Below, in pieces: positions 7,849 through 24,867 of a stretch of DNA of 25,682 bases (the first letter of the stretch is position 1; each line of letters begins with the position of its first letter). This DNA comes from a virus. Below the pieces are notes generated by a model. That model ran no database searches, was not told the DNA's origin, and was given only the letters and a program-made list of their open reading frames with translations. The stretch is taken from positions 1 through 25,682 of the IMG/VR virus record IMGVR_UViG_3300032287_000984, one strand, 5' to 3'. A program made the position numbers and the translations under genes.

Positions 7849-8256
7849 ATGCAAGAAATCTACGATCCACATCTAAAAATATCTAAATATCAATGGGGTG
7901 AGCCAGAAGGCACTGCCCATATGAAGAAAATGACCCCCGGAGAAAATAAAAATATGGGTTACAATACTTTAAAAATTTGGGAAGATCGCTCTAATGAGTT
8001 AGAATTTGATGGTATTCAGACCAAACATTTCCATTTTTGCCCATCAGCATACAAAGCATTTAAGAAAAACATCGATGATATTAGAGCAGGAAAGCATCTA
8101 GGTGAATTTGCTGGTACTGAGCCAATGCATACAACTTCTAGCAATACAGATAAAATGAATGCGGTTCCAGAGACTGGAAAATCCGACTTTGCAAAGGCTC
8201 CTTTGAAACCACGCACTCTTAGAATGATGCAGCAATCGTATTATTTGGGATTATAA
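7849..8256 (+). CDS. Conserved hypothetical protein
   Basis: A 135-residue soluble protein without membrane segments or clear catalytic motif. The N-terminal part (YDPHLKISKYQWGEPEGTAH, MKKMTPGE) and the His/Phe-rich centre (KHFHFCPSAYKAF) are followed by a low-complexity linker and a basic end (KPRTLRMMQQSYYLGL). No Shine-Dalgarno is visible before the ATG, because the late-promoter box occupies that place. Its stop forms TAATG with the start of the Dps-like gene, so the two are probably co-translated. Placement between structural genes and Dps suggests a late, possibly virion-associated product, but I do not recognise a function. Confidence 0.6.
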   Translation: MQEIYDPHLKISKYQWGEPEGTAHMKKMTPGENKNMGYNTLKIWEDRSNELEFDGIQTKHFHFCPSAYKAFKKNIDDIRAGKHLGEFAGTEPMHTTSSNTDKMNAVPETGKSDFAKAPLKPRTLRMMQQSYYLGL

Positions 8257-8684
8257 TGTTAGCAGATCAATTAAAAATTACTCAGGCAGATGCTTTTACC
8301 TTTTATTTAAAAGCTCATTTTTATCATTGGAATGTAGAAGGTCCAGATTTCGCGCAATACCATGAATTTTTAGCTGATTTATATCAAGATGTTTTTGAAT
8401 CAGTTGACACACTTGCCGAGTTAATTAGAACACTAGATGTTTATGCACCCGGCACAATGACCAGATTTAAAACATTGACAACCATTGAAGAAACCGATAT
8501 TATCCCTGATGCTAGAACAATGTTCATGAATTTGGCTCAAGAAAACATTAAAATGAGAGCATCATTGATGCGCTCATATGATATGGCAAACAAAGAAAAC
8601 GAGATTGGCATTGCCAATTTTCTGCAAGATAGAATTCAAGCCCATGAAAAACACTCTTGGATGTTGAGGTCAATTCTAAAATGA
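8256..8684 (+). CDS. dps: Dps-like ferritin (DNA-protecting ferroxidase)
   Basis: A 142-residue four-helix protein matching the Dps branch of the ferritin superfamily. The inter-subunit ferroxidase ligands line up by spacing with E. coli Dps H51, H63, D78 and E82 as H24 (in FYHWNVEGPDF), H36, D51 and E55 (SVDTLAE); the fifth ligand, D67, is replaced by A40 with D41 adjacent. Dps proteins form 12-subunit shells that oxidise Fe(II) with peroxide and can bind DNA. This protein lacks a long basic N-terminal tail, so DNA binding, if any, would use another surface. It is coupled to its neighbours by TAATG (8254-8258) and ATGA (8681-8684). Lying in the late region, it may protect phage DNA or the host from oxidative damage, or be packaged; that is inference. 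Confidence 0.85.
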   Translation: MLADQLKITQADAFTFYLKAHFYHWNVEGPDFAQYHEFLADLYQDVFESVDTLAELIRTLDVYAPGTMTRFKTLTTIEETDIIPDARTMFMNLAQENIKMRASLMRSYDMANKENEIGIANFLQDRIQAHEKHSWMLRSILK

Positions 8685-10564
8685 TTACAGATTTAGATGT
8701 TCAACACGAACTATTAAAGGTAGCTTTACTATCAACAGATAATTATTTGTCTATTGAGGAAGCCGCGCAAGATGCTGGCAGAGCAAATTCTGTAATGATG
8801 AAGGATTTTCTTTATCATTATGATTCTGCATATAGAGCATTGGTTTCCATTGGTATTTTGGATCAGCATCAAGAGTACATGCAAAAGCATCTGAATAACA
8901 TGTGGAAGTTATCTAAAGATGATGATGCAACTTTGGCTGACAATCCATATGCCGAAACCACCGGAATGAGTGGTGAGATGGGCGAATCAAGAGTCAATTC
9001 ATTTCTTGGATTTCATGCTGAAAAAGAATTAAATGAAAACGAAGTGACTGAAGATTTAAGAAAATGGTTTAAAGAAAAATGGGTCCGAATGGATACCAAG
9101 GGAAATATAAAAGGTGATTGTGCTCGCGAAGCTGGTGAGGGAAAACCAAAATGTTTACCACAAGCTAAAGCCAATGCTCTAAGCCAAGAAGAACGTGCGC
9201 GAGCAGCAAGACGTAAAAGAAGAGAAGATCCAAATCCAGAACGTGAAGGTAAACCCATTCATGTTAAAACAGAAAGTGTTACTGAAAGTGTTGAGGCATT
9301 AGAAGAAAAAAATGTGCCGACTAGTCCAGAGAAATGGGCGCAAGCAAAAGCCGCAGCAAAATTAAAATTTGCCGTATATCCTTGCGTACCATTAGATAGT
9401 TTGGCTATATCTAAAAATGGGCCAGCATTGCATGATGAGTTAGATATTGGTGATGAAATATTGACATATAATATGGAAAAAGATGTTTTAGAATGGAAAC
9501 CAATTATTCATAAACATTATTATGAAAATGCTCCTTTATTGGAAATAGGAAAACCAACTGGATTTTCAATTCGTTGCACACCTAACCACAAATGGGTAAT
9601 TATTAAAGAAAATAAACCAGAATATGATCCGAAAACAATAACACATGCACTTGTTGAAACGAAAGACTTAAATACTCACATGAAAATATTAATGTGTGCC
9701 ACATTAAAAAATGATTCTACATTGTTAATTGAAAATTGGTCTAAAAAAGACAATTGGATAGAAAAAGTTTTATCCATGAATGAAAAAGAAAGAGAAATAT
9801 TTTTAGCTAGTTCTGTTGTTTATGATGGTTGGGATAAAGGTGTTTCAACAAAAATAAAAGATCGGCATACTTTTGGATTTGTTCAAAAAGAATATGATCA
9901 TCTTTGGGCATCATTACTTGCAGCTTATTTAAATGGCTATTATGTTAATAGCAAACAAAAAGCGGAAGATATGACGGCAGCTAGTTATATTAGAAACAAA
10001 AGATTTCATAATACTCAAAATTTATATAAAAAAGAATCTGGAAATGAAGATGTGTGGTGTCCAACAACAGAAAATGAAACTTGGGTAATGATACAAAATG
10101 GATTGATTACAATTACTGGTAATTCAGCCTATGCTAATGGTTGGGCTGCAAAGAAATACAAAGAAATGGGTGGTGGTTGGAAATCAGTATCTGAAGAATC
10201 AGATTCATTTAAATCATTTTGTGACTTTCACGATTCGGGAATTGTAGAAGAAGAATTTATTTCTGATGGAAATGAATTGTATGAGGATTGGGGTGAAGTC
10301 GCAGAGCAAGTAGATGGAAAGACATTAAACAAACCATTCCTAACACCCAACGGTCCTAAGAAACGTGCAGTTTATGTAAAGAATGATTCTGGCAATGTAG
10401 TAAAAGTTAATTTTGGTGATCCGCACATGGAAATCAAGCGCGACAATCCAGAAAGAAGAAAGAGTTATAGGGCCAGACATAATTGCGACAATCCCGGTCC
10501 AAAACACAAAGCAAATTATTGGTCATGCAAATTTTGGTCTACAACACCAGTTTCAAAGCTATAA
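8681..10564 (+). CDS. Phage protein of unknown function (DUF6321/DUF5872-like regions) interrupted by an intein
   Basis: The start is ATG 8681, overlapping the dps stop as ATGA, giving a 627-residue precursor. Residues 1-75 are helical. Residues about 120-200 hold a Cys-containing basic region (DLRKWFKEKWVRMD, CAREAGEGKPKCLPQAKA, RARAARRKRRE) that resembles a conserved T4-like cyanophage domain I recall as DUF6321. Then comes KWAQAKAAAKLKFAVYP, which is interrupted. The intein occupies residues 235-481. The other half, SAYANGWAAKKYKEMGGGW, continues a motif I associate with DUF5872. The end (ERRKSYRARHNCDNPG, YWSCKFWS) is a further conserved Cys/Trp/Arg motif. Ligation would give a 380-residue extein. 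The function is unknown; location suggests a virion or morphogenesis role. Confidence 0.75.
   Translation: MITDLDVQHELLKVALLSTDNYLSIEEAAQDAGRANSVMMKDFLYHYDSAYRALVSIGILDQHQEYMQKHLNNMWKLSKDDDATLADNPYAETTGMSGEMGESRVNSFLGFHAEKELNENEVTEDLRKWFKEKWVRMDTKGNIKGDCAREAGEGKPKCLPQAKANALSQEERARAARRKRREDPNPEREGKPIHVKTESVTESVEALEEKNVPTSPEKWAQAKAAAKLKFAVYPCVPLDSLAISKNGPALHDELDIGDEILTYNMEKDVLEWKPIIHKHYYENAPLLEIGKPTGFSIRCTPNHKWVIIKENKPEYDPKTITHALVETKDLNTHMKILMCATLKNDSTLLIENWSKKDNWIEKVLSMNEKEREIFLASSVVYDGWDKGVSTKIKDRHTFGFVQKEYDHLWASLLAAYLNGYYVNSKQKAEDMTAASYIRNKRFHNTQNLYKKESGNEDVWCPTTENETWVMIQNGLITITGNSAYANGWAAKKYKEMGGGWKSVSEESDSFKSFCDFHDSGIVEEEFISDGNELYEDWGEVAEQVDGKTLNKPFLTPNGPKKRAVYVKNDSGNVVKVNFGDPHMEIKRDNPERRKSYRARHNCDNPGPKHKANYWSCKFWSTTPVSKL
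9383..10123 (+). mobile_element. In-frame intein (247 aa), Hint fold with probable degenerate endonuclease
   Basis: The segment starts with Cys1 in CVPLDSLAI and ends with TITGN followed by Ser+1. Block A is CVPLDSLAISKNG with IGDEILTYN. Block B is GFSIRCTPNHKWVI with the T-x-x-H motif at TPNH. Blocks F/G read VWCPTTENETWVMIQNG and LITITGN. The penultimate residue is Gly instead of the usual His, which is tolerated in some inteins. At 247 residues it is longer than a mini-intein and shorter than one with a full LAGLIDADG enzyme; the middle contains EREIFLASSVVYDGW and LASLLAAYLNGYYV, which look like a single degenerate LAGLIDADG-type unit. Removal rejoins AVYP with SAYANGW, restoring a contiguous motif. 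Confidence 0.9.
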
Positions 10565-10573
10565 GGGTATAAC

Positions 10574-11140
10574 ATGTTTAATGTCACAAAAGCACTTCAA
10601 GATGCAGTTCAAAAAGTTTTGGACGATTCACCAATGGCAGAAGCACTAATTGGTAATCAGACAAAGTTAGATGCCAATAAAAACGGTAAGCTAGACAAGC
10701 AAGACTTTAAACTTCTTCGCGGCGGCAAAAAAGAAAAAGAAAAGGAAGAACCCATTGAAGAAGCTAGGTTTAAAAAAGGACAGGATGTTGGTGATCCCGG
10801 TTTAAATTTCAAAAAAATTGCTGCTAAAGCTGCTGAAAAGTATGGTTCAAAAGCAGCAGGTCAAAGAGTTGCTGGTTTTGTTCTTAAAAAGAAACTTGCC
10901 AATTCCCGTATGAGTGAAGAAGCAGATCAGATTGAAGAACTAAAAAAATCAACTTTGACTTCTTATGCTGGTAAAAATGTTGAAGATCAACTTGACAGAG
11001 CATCAAGCGCCAGTTTTAAATCTGGTAAAGCTGGTGACATGTACAATAAAGCAGCAATTGCAAAAAAAGATATTAAACGTGCAAAGATGATGGGTGCAGC
11101 ACTACGCAAGCTGGCAGACCCAAATTATGGAAATAAATAA
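10574..11140 (+). CDS. EF-hand-loop protein, putative internal/virion protein
   Basis: A 188-residue highly charged, mostly helical protein with ribosome-binding site AAGGG at 10563-10567. Residues 33-44 (DANKNGKLDKQD) fit a single canonical 12-residue EF-hand calcium loop: D33, N35, N37, G38, L40, D41 and D44. A Lys/Glu linker follows (KKEKEKEEPIEE). Two helical regions rich in Ala/Lys (FKKIAAKAAEKYGSKAAGQR and AAIAKKDIKRAKMMGAALRK) occupy the rest, with SYAGKNVEDQLDRASSASF between. Proteins with this mix occur near structural genes in T4-like aquatic phages; an internal head or scaffold-type protein is my guess. A cluster of late-promoter motifs starts inside its final codons. Confidence 0.6.
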   Translation: MFNVTKALQDAVQKVLDDSPMAEALIGNQTKLDANKNGKLDKQDFKLLRGGKKEKEKEEPIEEARFKKGQDVGDPGLNFKKIAAKAAEKYGSKAAGQRVAGFVLKKKLANSRMSEEADQIEELKKSTLTSYAGKNVEDQLDRASSASFKSGKAGDMYNKAAIAKKDIKRAKMMGAALRKLADPNYGNK

Positions 11141-17827: not shown

Positions 17828-19618
17828 ATGGGTACAGGTAGTATCAGGGTAGACTATACTCGCGATTCTTTGTTTGATGAATTGGGTCTAAAAAGACTCA
17901 AAGAATCGTACATGAAAGAAAGCGAAAAATCACCACAAGAAAGGTTTGCATATGTTTCAAATGCATTTTCTAGCAATGAAGATCATGCTCAGAGGTTATA
18001 TGAGTACTCTTCAAAACATTGGCTTTCTTATTCTACTCCTATATTATCCTTTGGAAGATCTAATAAAGGGTTACCTATCTCATGTTTTTTATCGTACCTA
18101 GATGATTCATCTGATGGATTAGTTAATACTTTATCTGAAGTCAATTGGCTATCCATGTTAGGTGGTGGTGTTGGAATTGGTGTTGGTATTCGTTCAACAG
18201 ATGATAAATCAGTTGGTGTAATGCCGCATTTACGCACCTATGACGCATCATCATTGGCATATCGGCAAGGACGCACTCGGCGTGGTAGTTATGCTGCATA
18301 TCTAGATATTAGTCATCCAGATATCAATTTGTTTATTGATATGCGTAAACCAACTGGCGATCCTAATATGAGAGCAATGAATTTGCATCATGGGATTAAT
18401 ATCACAGATGATTTTATGCGTCTGATTGAAAAGTGTATGCTTGATACAACCGCAGATGATTCATGGGAATTAAAAGATCCACATAATGGTGAGGTGCGTG
18501 AGGTTGTATCTGCAAAAGAATTGTGGCAAAAGATTATTGAAACCAGAATGCTAACTGGTGAGCCATATATTCATTACATTGATACTACCAACAATGCAAT
18601 GCCAGAATTTCAAAAGGCATTGGGATTGAAAGTGCGTCAATCCAATTTGTGTTCTGAAATCACATTGCCGACAGATGAAACCAGAACTGCGGTTTGTTGT
18701 TTGTCTTCAGTTAATCTAGAATACTATGATGAGTGGTCAAAGGATTCTGTTTTCCTTTATGATGTAGCAGAGATGCTGGATAATGTTCTGCAATACTTTA
18801 TCGACAATGCACCTAAAACTGTAGATAGAGCAGTCTATTCGGCTATGCGTGAGCGTTCAATTGGTATTGGGGCATTGGGATTTCATGCTCTATTACAAAA
18901 GCGTGGCATTGCATTTGAAGGTGTAATGGCAAAGTTATTGAACCGCGATATTTTCAAACATATCAAAAAAGAACTTGATATTGCCAATAAGTTATTGGGT
19001 AAAGAGCGTGGCGAAGCACCTGATGCTGCTGGTACTGGTCGCAGATTTAGTCATATGTTAGCGATTGCGCCTAATGCATCATCATCAATCATTATGGGCA
19101 ATACTAGTCCATCAATTGAACCATATCGAGCAAATTGTTATCGGCAAGATACGTTGTCTGGATCATTCTTGAATAAGAATAAATTCTTGGATTCTGTAAT
19201 TAAAGATTATTGTTCCAAAGATACATCAATTGATTATGATGCAACATGGAGTTCTATCATTGCCACTGATGGGTCGGTTCAGCATCTAGAATGGTTAGAT
19301 GAAAACAATAAGGCAATTTTCAAAACATCAATGGAAATTGATCAGCGATGGGTTATTGAACATGCGGCTGATAGACAAGCATTTATTGATCAGGCGCAAT
19401 CTTTGAATGTGTTTTTCAGACCAGATTCAAATGTTAAGTATGTCCATGCTATTCACTTTTTGGCATGGAAAAAACAACTCAAGACACTTTACTATTGCCG
19501 GTCAGAAAAGTTAGCTAAAGCAGATAAAGTATCAAAGCGAATTGAGCGTAAAGTTATTGATGAAATTGATTTGGAATTAATCGCACAAGGAAATGATTGC
19601 ATTGCTTGTGAAGGGTGA
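17828..19618 (+). CDS. nrdA: Ribonucleotide reductase class Ia large subunit (NrdA)
   Basis: I set the start at ATG 17828, after the spanin stop, giving 596 residues; an extension to 17762 would overlap the spanin gene. Catalytic features are all visible: C86 (GLPISCFL) and C290 (VCCLSS) for the disulfide pair, N273-L-C275-x-E277 (SNLCSEI) for the thiyl-radical site, Y555-Y556 (TLYYCRS) for radical transfer and the C-terminal C591-x2-C594 (CIACEG) for re-reduction. It reduces ribonucleoside diphosphates to deoxy forms with NrdB. It is shorter than E. coli NrdA and begins SIRVDYTRDSLFDELGL, without an N-terminal ATP-cone, so the usual dATP off-switch appears absent. Its stop overlaps the region just ahead of the dadA-like start. 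Confidence 0.95.
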   Translation: MGTGSIRVDYTRDSLFDELGLKRLKESYMKESEKSPQERFAYVSNAFSSNEDHAQRLYEYSSKHWLSYSTPILSFGRSNKGLPISCFLSYLDDSSDGLVNTLSEVNWLSMLGGGVGIGVGIRSTDDKSVGVMPHLRTYDASSLAYRQGRTRRGSYAAYLDISHPDINLFIDMRKPTGDPNMRAMNLHHGINITDDFMRLIEKCMLDTTADDSWELKDPHNGEVREVVSAKELWQKIIETRMLTGEPYIHYIDTTNNAMPEFQKALGLKVRQSNLCSEITLPTDETRTAVCCLSSVNLEYYDEWSKDSVFLYDVAEMLDNVLQYFIDNAPKTVDRAVYSAMRERSIGIGALGFHALLQKRGIAFEGVMAKLLNRDIFKHIKKELDIANKLLGKERGEAPDAAGTGRRFSHMLAIAPNASSSIIMGNTSPSIEPYRANCYRQDTLSGSFLNKNKFLDSVIKDYCSKDTSIDYDATWSSIIATDGSVQHLEWLDENNKAIFKTSMEIDQRWVIEHAADRQAFIDQAQSLNVFFRPDSNVKYVHAIHFLAWKKQLKTLYYCRSEKLAKADKVSKRIERKVIDEIDLELIAQGNDCIACEG

Positions 19619-19620
19619 TT

Positions 19621-20790
19621 ATGAAAATAGCAGTAATCGGATCTGGTATTGTTGGTATTTCCTCTGCATATGAATTAGCAAAAAGCGGGTATGACGTAAC
19701 AGTATTTGATGCTGAGTCATATCCTGCAATGAAAACAAGTTATGCTAATGGGGGTCAAATCTCTGTTAGCAATAGCGAGGTTTGGAATTCATGGTCAAAC
19801 ATTTTCAAAGCAATTAAATGGTTGGGAAAGAAAGATGCACCATTGCTTTTTGATCCATCATTTGATTGGGATAAATTTGTATGGCTGACTAAATTTCTAA
19901 ATGTAGTCATAAAAAATCAAGGTGATGCGAACACCGCAACCACAATTAAATTAGGATTACAATCCAGAGAACTATATAAAGAAATTATTCGCGAAGAGAG
20001 AATTAAGTTTGATTACAATCAAGCTGGTATTTTGCATTTTTACAAAGACAAAAATTACTTTTTAAATGCAATAAAAATTGGTGATGTATACCGTAAGAAT
20101 GGTTGCCAATGGACTGTATTAACTCCAACAGAAGTTGCTGGTGAAGAGCCAAAGTTAAATATGAAGGGTGTATTGGGTGGAACTATTACACAAGACGATT
20201 GTGTTGGAGACATTCATAAGTATTGTTGGGCATTGCACAATGTATTGCGAAGAAAATATGATGTTAAATTTGAGTTTGACCAATCAATTGATGATCCTAG
20301 AGTTTTGATGCCACAGTTTGATAAGGTTGTAATTTCCAATGGAGTTGATGCAACCCGAATGACTAAGAAACTTGGTGACAAACAATTGGTGTATCCAGTA
20401 AAAGGATACAGTGTTACTATATACGGCAATGATGAAGTTGTGTTACCATCTAGAAGTCTGTTAGATGATCAGGCAAAGATTGTAACTTCTACATTGGGTA
20501 ATAGATTTAGAGTTGCTGGTACTGCTGAATTGGCAGGACACAATTGGGATATTCGCGCTGACAGAGTAAAACCATTGTTGGATTGGGTTAAAGTAAACTT
20601 TCCTCACATCAATACAAAGGACTATATTAGTTGGGCATGTTTAAGACCAATGACTCCTAATATGTTACCTATCGTAAAACGCAGCAAACTAAATAACATC
20701 TACTATCATTTTGGGCATGGGCATTTGGGTTGGACACTTAGTCCCGCAACCGCAAAACAATTAAAGGAATTAATCAGCAATGAAACTTAA
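19621..20790 (+). CDS. dadA: D-amino acid dehydrogenase-like FAD oxidoreductase (DadA family)
   Basis: The start is ATG 19621 with AAGGG five bases ahead; GTG 19615 is an alternative. The 389-residue product has an N-terminal Rossmann FAD motif G7-x-G9-x-x-G12 with acidic D30, then TSYANGGQISVSNSEVWNSW, which closely follows DadA, and a C-terminal FAD segment GHGHLGWTLSP at about 365-375. DadA enzymes oxidise D-amino acids, especially D-alanine, to 2-oxo acids and ammonia, passing electrons to quinones. It is about 40 residues shorter than the E. coli enzyme. Codon use matches its neighbours, so it is not a recent arrival. It lies between nrdA and nrdB, and its last codons overlap a relict nrdB start. 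A glycine-oxidase-like substrate is possible. Confidence 0.85.
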   Translation: MKIAVIGSGIVGISSAYELAKSGYDVTVFDAESYPAMKTSYANGGQISVSNSEVWNSWSNIFKAIKWLGKKDAPLLFDPSFDWDKFVWLTKFLNVVIKNQGDANTATTIKLGLQSRELYKEIIREERIKFDYNQAGILHFYKDKNYFLNAIKIGDVYRKNGCQWTVLTPTEVAGEEPKLNMKGVLGGTITQDDCVGDIHKYCWALHNVLRRKYDVKFEFDQSIDDPRVLMPQFDKVVISNGVDATRMTKKLGDKQLVYPVKGYSVTIYGNDEVVLPSRSLLDDQAKIVTSTLGNRFRVAGTAELAGHNWDIRADRVKPLLDWVKVNFPHINTKDYISWACLRPMTPNMLPIVKRSKLNNIYYHFGHGHLGWTLSPATAKQLKELISNET

Positions 20791-23713: not shown

Positions 23714-24184
23714 ATGATACGTTCAACAGACATTTACATGGGATCGAATGTCTACAAATCGCGTGTTGCACACAATCAGTACCGGCAAGCGAGTACTGAG
23801 ATTTGTAGTTTAATCAAAGCAGCGATACCAGAATTGCGTAAACTTTTAGAGTTTAATCCCTATTTGTCTTATAGGGTATCGCCCATGCGCGGATCAACCT
23901 TTGGTCATTTCAAAAACGATGCAATGTGCGTGGAAATTTCATGCAGAGTGACTATTCCAAGGGCATTATTAATTCTGACGCATGAATTGATTCATGGCGA
24001 ACAATACTATCAGGGTAGATTGAAACAAATCTATGAGGGTAGTGAAATGGTATGGATGGGGCGCAGATCAAGTAATCGCGGCACTACATATGCTGCATAC
24101 CGCGAACAACCATGGGAAGTAGAAGCATTTGCTCGCGAACCAGAATTGTCAGAAATCGTTGCTAAAAAATTGGGGATAATCTAA
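23714..24184 (+). CDS. HExxH putative metallopeptidase-like phage protein
   Basis: ATG 23714 is chosen because AAGGAG stands eight bases ahead; an upstream TTG at 23660 would put the promoter inside the gene. The 156-residue product has H90-E91-L-I-H94 (ILTHELIHGEQYYQGR), the zinc-metallopeptidase motif, in a predicted helix, and a downstream EQPWEVEAFA (E135, E137) that could give the third ligand. The N-terminal 60 residues are helical, and GSTFGHFKNDAMCVEISC forms the likely edge strand. Proteins of this pattern recur in phages but have no known substrate to my knowledge. It may be a protease-like fold with a structural role. Its stop overlaps the glycosyltransferase start (TAATG). Confidence 0.7.
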   Translation: MIRSTDIYMGSNVYKSRVAHNQYRQASTEICSLIKAAIPELRKLLEFNPYLSYRVSPMRGSTFGHFKNDAMCVEISCRVTIPRALLILTHELIHGEQYYQGRLKQIYEGSEMVWMGRRSSNRGTTYAAYREQPWEVEAFAREPELSEIVAKKLGII

Positions 24185-24867
24185 TGTATAGTGTAATTGT
24201 GCCTACTATGTGGAAAACCAAAGACTTGTTTCTGGGGTTTTTGAATGATTTAGTTAAAGAAGAAATGGTTGGTGAAGTCATTATTATTGATAATGCACCA
24301 GAATTAAATGTGGATGATCCCGTATTAGATGATCCAAAGGTATTCATTTTTGAATTCGGGCAAAACGTCTTTGTTTATCCAGCATTGAACTTTGGCATTA
24401 GACAATCTAATTTTGATAATATTTGCCTTTTGAATGATGATTTGGTTTTTGACACTAAAGCATTTGCCAAGATTGCATCATATCTTTCTATTGAAGGAAC
24501 TGGTTATGTTGGTATTGCTCCCGGTGTGCGTGATCAACCACCTATGCGTGATGAATCAATTGACATTGTAGAATGGATTGGTCAAGATACATGGGGTTAT
24601 GGTTGTTTGATGTTCTTTAATAAACAGCATTGTCCAGTGTTTCCGGATGAATTGCTTGTATTTTATGGCGACAATTATGTGTTTGACTATGCATTGTCAA
24701 AGGGCAAAAAGAATTACTTTGTATCGAACATGAGATTCTTTACTCCATACCATGCTACTAGTAGTGATCGCGAGATTGTGGGGGATATCTACCTGCGTGA
24801 TCAGGCGGCGTTTTTCCAGTTGCGAGAGTCGCTACAGATAGACGGGCCGCGCTTTCGAGTGGGGTAG
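24184..24867 (+). CDS. Family 2-type (GT-A) glycosyltransferase
   Basis: A 227-residue protein with the GT-A opening MYSVIVPTMWKTKDLF, the nucleotide-binding EVIIIDNAPE (D36), GQNVFVYPALNFGIRQS and the metal-binding LLNDDLVFD (N84-D85-D86). Next is GYVGIAPG and a GYGCLMFFNKQ strand, where an acceptor-side D/E is expected. It transfers a sugar from a nucleotide-sugar donor; the acceptor may be host surface polysaccharide, phage DNA or a virion protein. The final 20 codons (from about 24800) change abruptly to GC-rich sequence (58% in 24801-24860), which is unlike the gene body. It is coupled to the HExxH gene by TAATG. Confidence 0.82.
   Translation: MYSVIVPTMWKTKDLFLGFLNDLVKEEMVGEVIIIDNAPELNVDDPVLDDPKVFIFEFGQNVFVYPALNFGIRQSNFDNICLLNDDLVFDTKAFAKIASYLSIEGTGYVGIAPGVRDQPPMRDESIDIVEWIGQDTWGYGCLMFFNKQHCPVFPDELLVFYGDNYVFDYALSKGKKNYFVSNMRFFTPYHATSSDREIVGDIYLRDQAAFFQLRESLQIDGPRFRVG

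Follow-up and report, generated by a model that had tools for sequence, protein, structure and literature searches.

Inteins resembling the one described here are known from several systems. The DNA polymerase I of phi92-like coliphages (Justusliebigvirus and Phapecoctavirus) contains a 245-aa intein with Cys1, HxW, VWCP, TITGN, and one LAGLIDADG-like motif. Class 3 inteins (e.g., MP-Be DnaB, Msm DnaBi1, MchDnaB1, and AceL NrdHF), which are also associated with phages, have no nucleophile at residue 1 and carry Trp B:12, Cys F:4, and Thr G:5 along with His B:10. This Trp-Cys-Thr signature has been described as class 3 only (PMC7664689; see PMC3196547), although the combination of Cys1 with the signature may have been noticed earlier. 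Thr B:7 of the TxxH motif, in turn, is a class 1 feature that is generally missing from class 3 (PMC6195587), and some known class 1 inteins have Cys at F:4 (PMC3196547). A penultimate His is common but not obligatory in class 1, and about 5% of functional inteins do without it (PMC4031507). One such case is the class 1 RDF intein (gp51) of mycobacteriophage Bethlehem, which splices completely with its natural penultimate Gly, while its Gly-to-His mutant needs over 5 h to get about halfway (PMC5050341).

The stretch of DNA analysed here (hereafter “the window”) is a 25.7-kb virus record (25,682 nucleotides), in which positions 9383–10123 of a tailed-phage gene encode an intein that is predicted, from its anatomy, to be self-splicing. 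It is thus a known kind of element, at a site for which we found no published description, and with an unusual mixture of class 1 and class 3 residues. The overall explanation that we consider very probable is that the intein sits in a DUF5872-like motif, would splice out to leave a 380-aa protein, and would home as a homodimer of its single endonuclease half. The intein itself had been recognized in a preliminary description of this DNA; the Trp-Cys-Thr signature, a second insertion site four residues away, and transfer between phages are points beyond it.

Anatomy and context of the interrupted gene

The precursor frame lies on the + strand, as do all parts of the gene given below, with a TTG (8657) or a same-frame ATG (8681) as its start and the stop at 10564. 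Counted from the ATG, the gene (8681–10564, 627 aa) comprises an N-extein of 234 aa (8681–9382), an intein of 247 aa running from Cys1 to Asn247 (9383–10123), and a C-extein of 146 aa (10124–10561), that is, Ser-Ala-Tyr-Ala-Asn-Gly-Trp and 139 more residues. The extein alone therefore has 380 aa, and both sizes agree with those proposed previously. The N-extein holds a Cys-containing module beginning DCAREAGEGKPKCLP (9053–9229; phrog_23735/phrog_727), and the C-extein a C-terminal module ending RHNCDNPGPKHKANYWSCKFW (10316–10531; phrog_7595/DUF5754-like, with a sub-threshold Pfam match).

Within the intein, CVPLDS (from Cys1 at 9383), TPNHKW, DVWCPTTENETWVM, and LITITGN correspond in order to blocks A, B, F, and G of inteins; the window has a single occurrence of this ordered pattern, and 200 codon-shuffled windows had none. 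Block B (9578–9595) corresponds to intein residues 66–71 and contributes T66 (B:7), H69 (B:10), and W71 (B:12); block F (DVWC226PTTENETWVMIQ, 10049–10096) contributes Cys F:4; and block G (LITIT245-G246-N247, 10103–10123) contributes Thr G:5, Gly G:6, and Asn G:7, its ITITGN end being followed directly by Ser. The insert is in frame, at a conserved site, and missing from homologous proteins. It has C1, the TxxH motif (T66-P-N-H69), N247, and Ser+1, with C1, T66, H69, and N247 invariant in the 34 A2 sequences.

Homology and predicted structure agree with this assignment. In a tblastn search, the intein matched 58 phage records, 34 of them over at least 80% of the query, and nearly all of these 34 were coliphage DNA polymerase I (32% identity, E down to 2e-25); one matching polymerase insert, in PaulScherrer, is annotated as an intein. 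The phi92-like polymerase intein is homologous over its full length (32–34% identity) and shares the motifs listed above, but differs in its extein and in having Cys rather than Ser at +1. Two relatives at the identical site were 78–79% identical to the window intein. An AlphaFold2 model (34 sequences; pLDDT 90, pTM 0.87) confidently showed a Hint fold, and the PDB matches listed by Foldseek and VIA-align were inteins or other Hint domains, including the endonuclease-bearing TliVMA intein, which aligned over 229 of 247 residues (Z 17.0, rmsd 3.6). The profile search suggested in the preliminary description did return Pfam and NCBIfam intein models, but with scores short of the curated cut-offs (18.3 of 35.8 bits and 20.5 of 24.5 bits). 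One genome scan for cellular relatives gave four weak matches, of which the three inspected (L462, L464, and L465) all belonged to ribonucleotide reductases, leaving the intein without a close cellular source in that scan.

Some of the records matched deserve comment in their own right. The PaulScherrer intein annotation (L005 1504–2238, MZ501100.1) is placed one codon late, omitting Cys1 and taking in Cys+1. Records named “Campylobacter phage” A150, A145, C3, and A110a (MG065639, MG065645, MG065656, and MG065689) matched coliphage-type inteins; that of A150 is classed as Justusliebigvirus, is marked unverified, and is probably mislabelled or contaminated. The Neomarinimicrobiota MAG contig L462 encodes an apparent ribonucleotide reductase in which three or more inteins lie near one another.

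Virion/tail genes (for tail fibre, tail assembly, and virion) come before the intein gene and nucleotide-metabolism genes after it, where a DNA primase, ThyX, NrdA, and NrdB are encoded; the earlier assignment of the gene to a late region is best taken as tentative. Phage NrdA aligned without a break to 99% of the NrdA length, and the match of NrdB to its family covered residues 9–324, which bears out the earlier reading of the ribonucleotide reductase genes as intein-free. Phage inteins outside enzymes have precedents in portal and hypothetical proteins (PMC5050341), and the tape measure protein of Gordonia phage Mcklovin (MN428055 16025–17080) also matched the intein family, representing an intein in a structural tail protein. 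Other genes in the window include a Dps/ferritin-like gene directly upstream (8256–8684; Pfam Ferritin E 3e-24, phrog_3636), within which the alternative TTG start falls, a gene immediately downstream for a small protein that matched EF-hand weakly (10574–11140), an FAD-dependent oxidoreductase between the NrdA and NrdB genes (19615–20790; DAO, E 3e-53), and a family 2 glycosyltransferase (24184–24867).

Residues of two splicing classes

Cys1 was present in 47 of 47 inteins of the family assembled here (see below), as were HxW, VWC, the TGN end, and Ser+1. By its residues, the window intein is a class 1 intein that carries the full class 3 signature: it opens with Cys, the sequence feature of class 1 (its catalytic role being predicted), and W71, C226, and T245 occupy positions B:12, F:4, and G:5, all invariant in A2. 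The likeness to class 3 extends to His B:10 and to the spacing of 19 between Cys and Thr, which equals that of Cys118–Thr137 in Msm DnaBi1 (PMC6195587) and Cys124–Thr143 in MchDnaB1 (PMC7664689). However, class 3 inteins have no residue 1 nucleophile, and because Cys1 is invariant here, we do not file the window intein as class 3. Related polymerase inteins also combine Cys1 with the signature, and the GordTnk2 TerL and KIL4 polymerase inteins look similar, so the combination appears to be widespread in phages rather than special to the window.

Cys1 probably acts first in splicing, judging from these residues. In the proposed route, the bond before Cys1 would be attacked in the 627-aa precursor after translation, the N-extein would move onto Ser+1, and Asn247 would then cyclise, leaving the 380-aa protein and a free 247-aa intein. 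A class 3-like or dual route, in which Cys226, with His69 and Thr245, attacks the N-terminal junction first and Cys1 is spare or an alternative, seems unlikely to us. The presence and invariance of all three signature residues and the shared spacing fit such a route, as does the best VIA-align match, the class 3 intein AceL NrdHF (Z 17.8, rmsd 2.0, 143 residues); yet of the matches ranked 2–10, most were class 1 inteins, trailing the top Z by about 1.8 at most. Moreover, a Cys1 kept throughout the family argues that it is needed, Thr B:7, the class 1 feature, is likewise invariant in A2, and the known class 1 inteins with Cys at F:4 show that this residue also occurs outside class 3.

The penultimate residue (Gly246) had been raised in the preliminary description as a potential obstacle to splicing. 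This concern was not upheld: the residue is Gly in 47 of 47 family members, and in the Bethlehem intein the natural Gly outperforms its His mutant (PMC5050341). Since about one in twenty functional inteins has no penultimate His, Gly246 does not exclude membership of class 1. The likeness to the Bethlehem intein lies in the nucleophile at the start and this Gly (PMC5050341), and that intein has an endonuclease active enough to be toxic. Penultimate Gly, with splicing being a prediction, might also be taken to indicate a Hint or bacterial intein-like (BIL) domain, cleaving or inert, with the 627-aa form as the mature protein. We regard this as very improbable, since BIL domains have no +1 nucleophile while Ser+1 and the terminal Asn are invariant in the family, the insert splits an otherwise uninterrupted domain, purifying selection is family-wide, and complete splicing is on record for a phage intein whose natural penultimate residue is Gly (PMC5050341).

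The insertion site and an intein family at two neighbouring positions

The intein interrupts VYP|SAYANGW, between its Pro and Ser, in a DUF5872-like domain, whose first half is KNVPTSPEKWAQAKAAAKLKFAVYP (9308–9382) and whose second half, beginning with Ser+1, is SAYANGWAAKKYKEMGGGWK (10124–10183). With the intein present, Pfam gave only a stray DUF5872 match (E 0.076, residues 131–151), whereas joining the flanks gave a match across the junction (E 3.6e-4, residues 213–252), in line with the earlier proposal that the joined flanks restore an uninterrupted motif. The joined 48-aa domain has more than 500 relatives in viral contigs. The alignment to intein-free homologues that had been called for is provided by 131 loci in which the match spans the empty junction and takes in 20 aa or more of either flank. 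The site had also been thought to be constrained, and P-S-A-Y-A was indeed invariant across 60 intein-free domains, at the core of the domain.

As modelled, the interrupted domain is a small, viral helix-loop-helix domain. The intein-free model had a mean pLDDT of 79 (above 90 in residues 11–50), with the motif forming the loop that joins two helices and the insertion site falling between Pro31 and Ser32, at the start of helix 2. The PDB held no fold or sequence match to this SAYA domain. Predicted viral structures did resemble it: most belonged to uncharacterised proteins, of uncultured caudoviruses among others, and a DUF5872 protein from a giant virus of algae matched weakly. The DUF5872 domain of algal giant viruses and uncultured caudoviruses, together with related cyanophage domains, corresponds to the interrupted extein domain and supplies homologues with an empty site. 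In the literature, we found one paper naming DUF5872, in a genome table only.

Scans with junction patterns and an intein profile were used to collect the family. They yielded 28 distinct inteins at the site of the window intein (site a, VYP|SAYAN(G/A)W), and 19 distinct inteins at a second site (site b, WPSAYA|SG), which the shared motif places four residues downstream from site a and which lies in a domain homologous to that of site a (profile–profile E 3e-12). Site a inteins are 138–263 aa long, and those at site b 168 and 278–281 aa; the mini-inteins of 138, 163, and 168 aa at the two sites have no endonuclease half. In a tree of 58 inteins, site b formed one group (support 99/86) and most of site a another (90/75), with the 138-aa minis, L095, and L190/L098 outside. 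Because several site a inteins fall outside the main group, more than one intein arrival at site a is possible.

The 138-aa minis at site a (L195, L199, L214, and L217; CLP(I/V)SY...VTGN) are clearly of a different lineage. In L002 (448–4743), the site a intein lies in a 1431-aa ORF, in which several repeats of the EE(V/T)EQIDE type precede segments that look helical. Repeats of this kind also recur near intein-free copies, and a virion polyprotein might be processed at them.

The LAGLIDADG half and apparent movement between phages

A single LAGLIDADG half (residues 125–204, 9755–9994) was delimited from model secondary structure, pLDDT, alignment, and selection. It has the LASSVVYDG helix (residues 141–149) with the catalytic acid in an alpha-beta-beta-alpha-beta-beta core, and the modelled half is complete (helix 134–148, strands 149–154 and 162–168, helix 171–183, strands 187–194 and 197–204). 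Inteins usually carry two such motifs per chain, as in PI-SceI and TliVMA and in relatives of 311–328 aa (L140, L142, L145, and L146), which L145 illustrates with EAAILGWVLSDG and REAFLDAFIKAEG. The window intein shares with these the Hint fold and the place at which the LAGLIDADG part is inserted, but is without the first half, it and its kin having only the second motif (FLASSVVYDG). One-motif LAGLIDADG chains can act as homodimers, for example I-CreI.

The half had been described as a decaying or half endonuclease; the second term holds and the first does not. In close pairs, dN/dS of the endonuclease half was 0.03–0.14, below that of the splicing part in most pairs, and the acid of YDG is kept in the long members (by motif scan, and by alignment rows for three that the scan missed). 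Selection was read from close pairs, wider comparisons (e.g., with L190) being saturated and carrying little information. The endonuclease half is under strong purifying selection, which rules out decay. A non-cutting relic, kept for folding or splicing in an intein spread via ordinary homologous recombination, is a lesser possibility. One motif instead of two, and minis without the half at the same two sites, would suit a relic; the same minis, however, suggest that the half is dispensable for the splicing fold, and it also speaks against a relic that in most close pairs the half is conserved no less strongly than the splicing part and retains the acidic D of YDG.

We compared synonymous divergence of the intein with that of the 40 adjoining extein codons in 14 pairs of related inteins. 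The intein was less diverged than the extein in all 14 pairs, with p < 0.05 in seven, although some pairs share members and are not independent, and p values are uncorrected. The strongest case, L121/L124, had 0 of 157 synonymous differences in the intein versus 11 of 26 in the extein (p = 5e-11), followed by L116/L120 (p 2e-4, with distinct exteins), L123/L126 (2e-4), L120/L130 (0.002), L161/L172 (0.004), L096/L102 (0.011), and L088/L212 (0.023). Near-identical inteins in diverged exteins point to recent transfer between phages. Metagenome assembly that blends strains could produce such a signal in an individual pair but would hardly do so throughout; alternatively, the transfer could have gone by ordinary phage recombination.

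In the homing route that we favor, the excised intein would pair with itself via the LAGLIDADG half to give a homodimeric homing endonuclease, which would cut intein-free copies of the motif in co-infecting phages, so that the intein is copied in; the sequences support the transfer, and we infer the cutting. More specifically, the homodimer may recognize a pseudo-palindromic GCNTAYGC core that encodes Ala-Tyr-Ala, a joint proposal that we hold to be doubtful. If true, it would account for the position of related inteins on the two sides of this core, at a distance of 12 bp, in a pair of homologous domains. When the target DNA was tested for palindromes, the best centre fell 7 bp after site a in both domains (6.5 and 6.1 of 11 pairs). 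Synonymous recoding gave an equal value, so the palindrome follows from the amino acids, and we discarded it as evidence of selection.

Cyanophages and freshwater phages commonly carry the viral domain whose conserved core the site marks, and algal giant viruses have it as well; the two adjacent insertion points, with full-size and mini-inteins, form a natural series for homing and loss. As matches to the family fall below the Pfam and NCBIfam intein cut-offs, current annotation is likely to miss it. The co-occurrence of Cys1 and the class 3 signature is relevant to the question of a possible class 1 ancestry for class 3 inteins, and a stable family with both residue sets is a natural place to test the origin of class 3.
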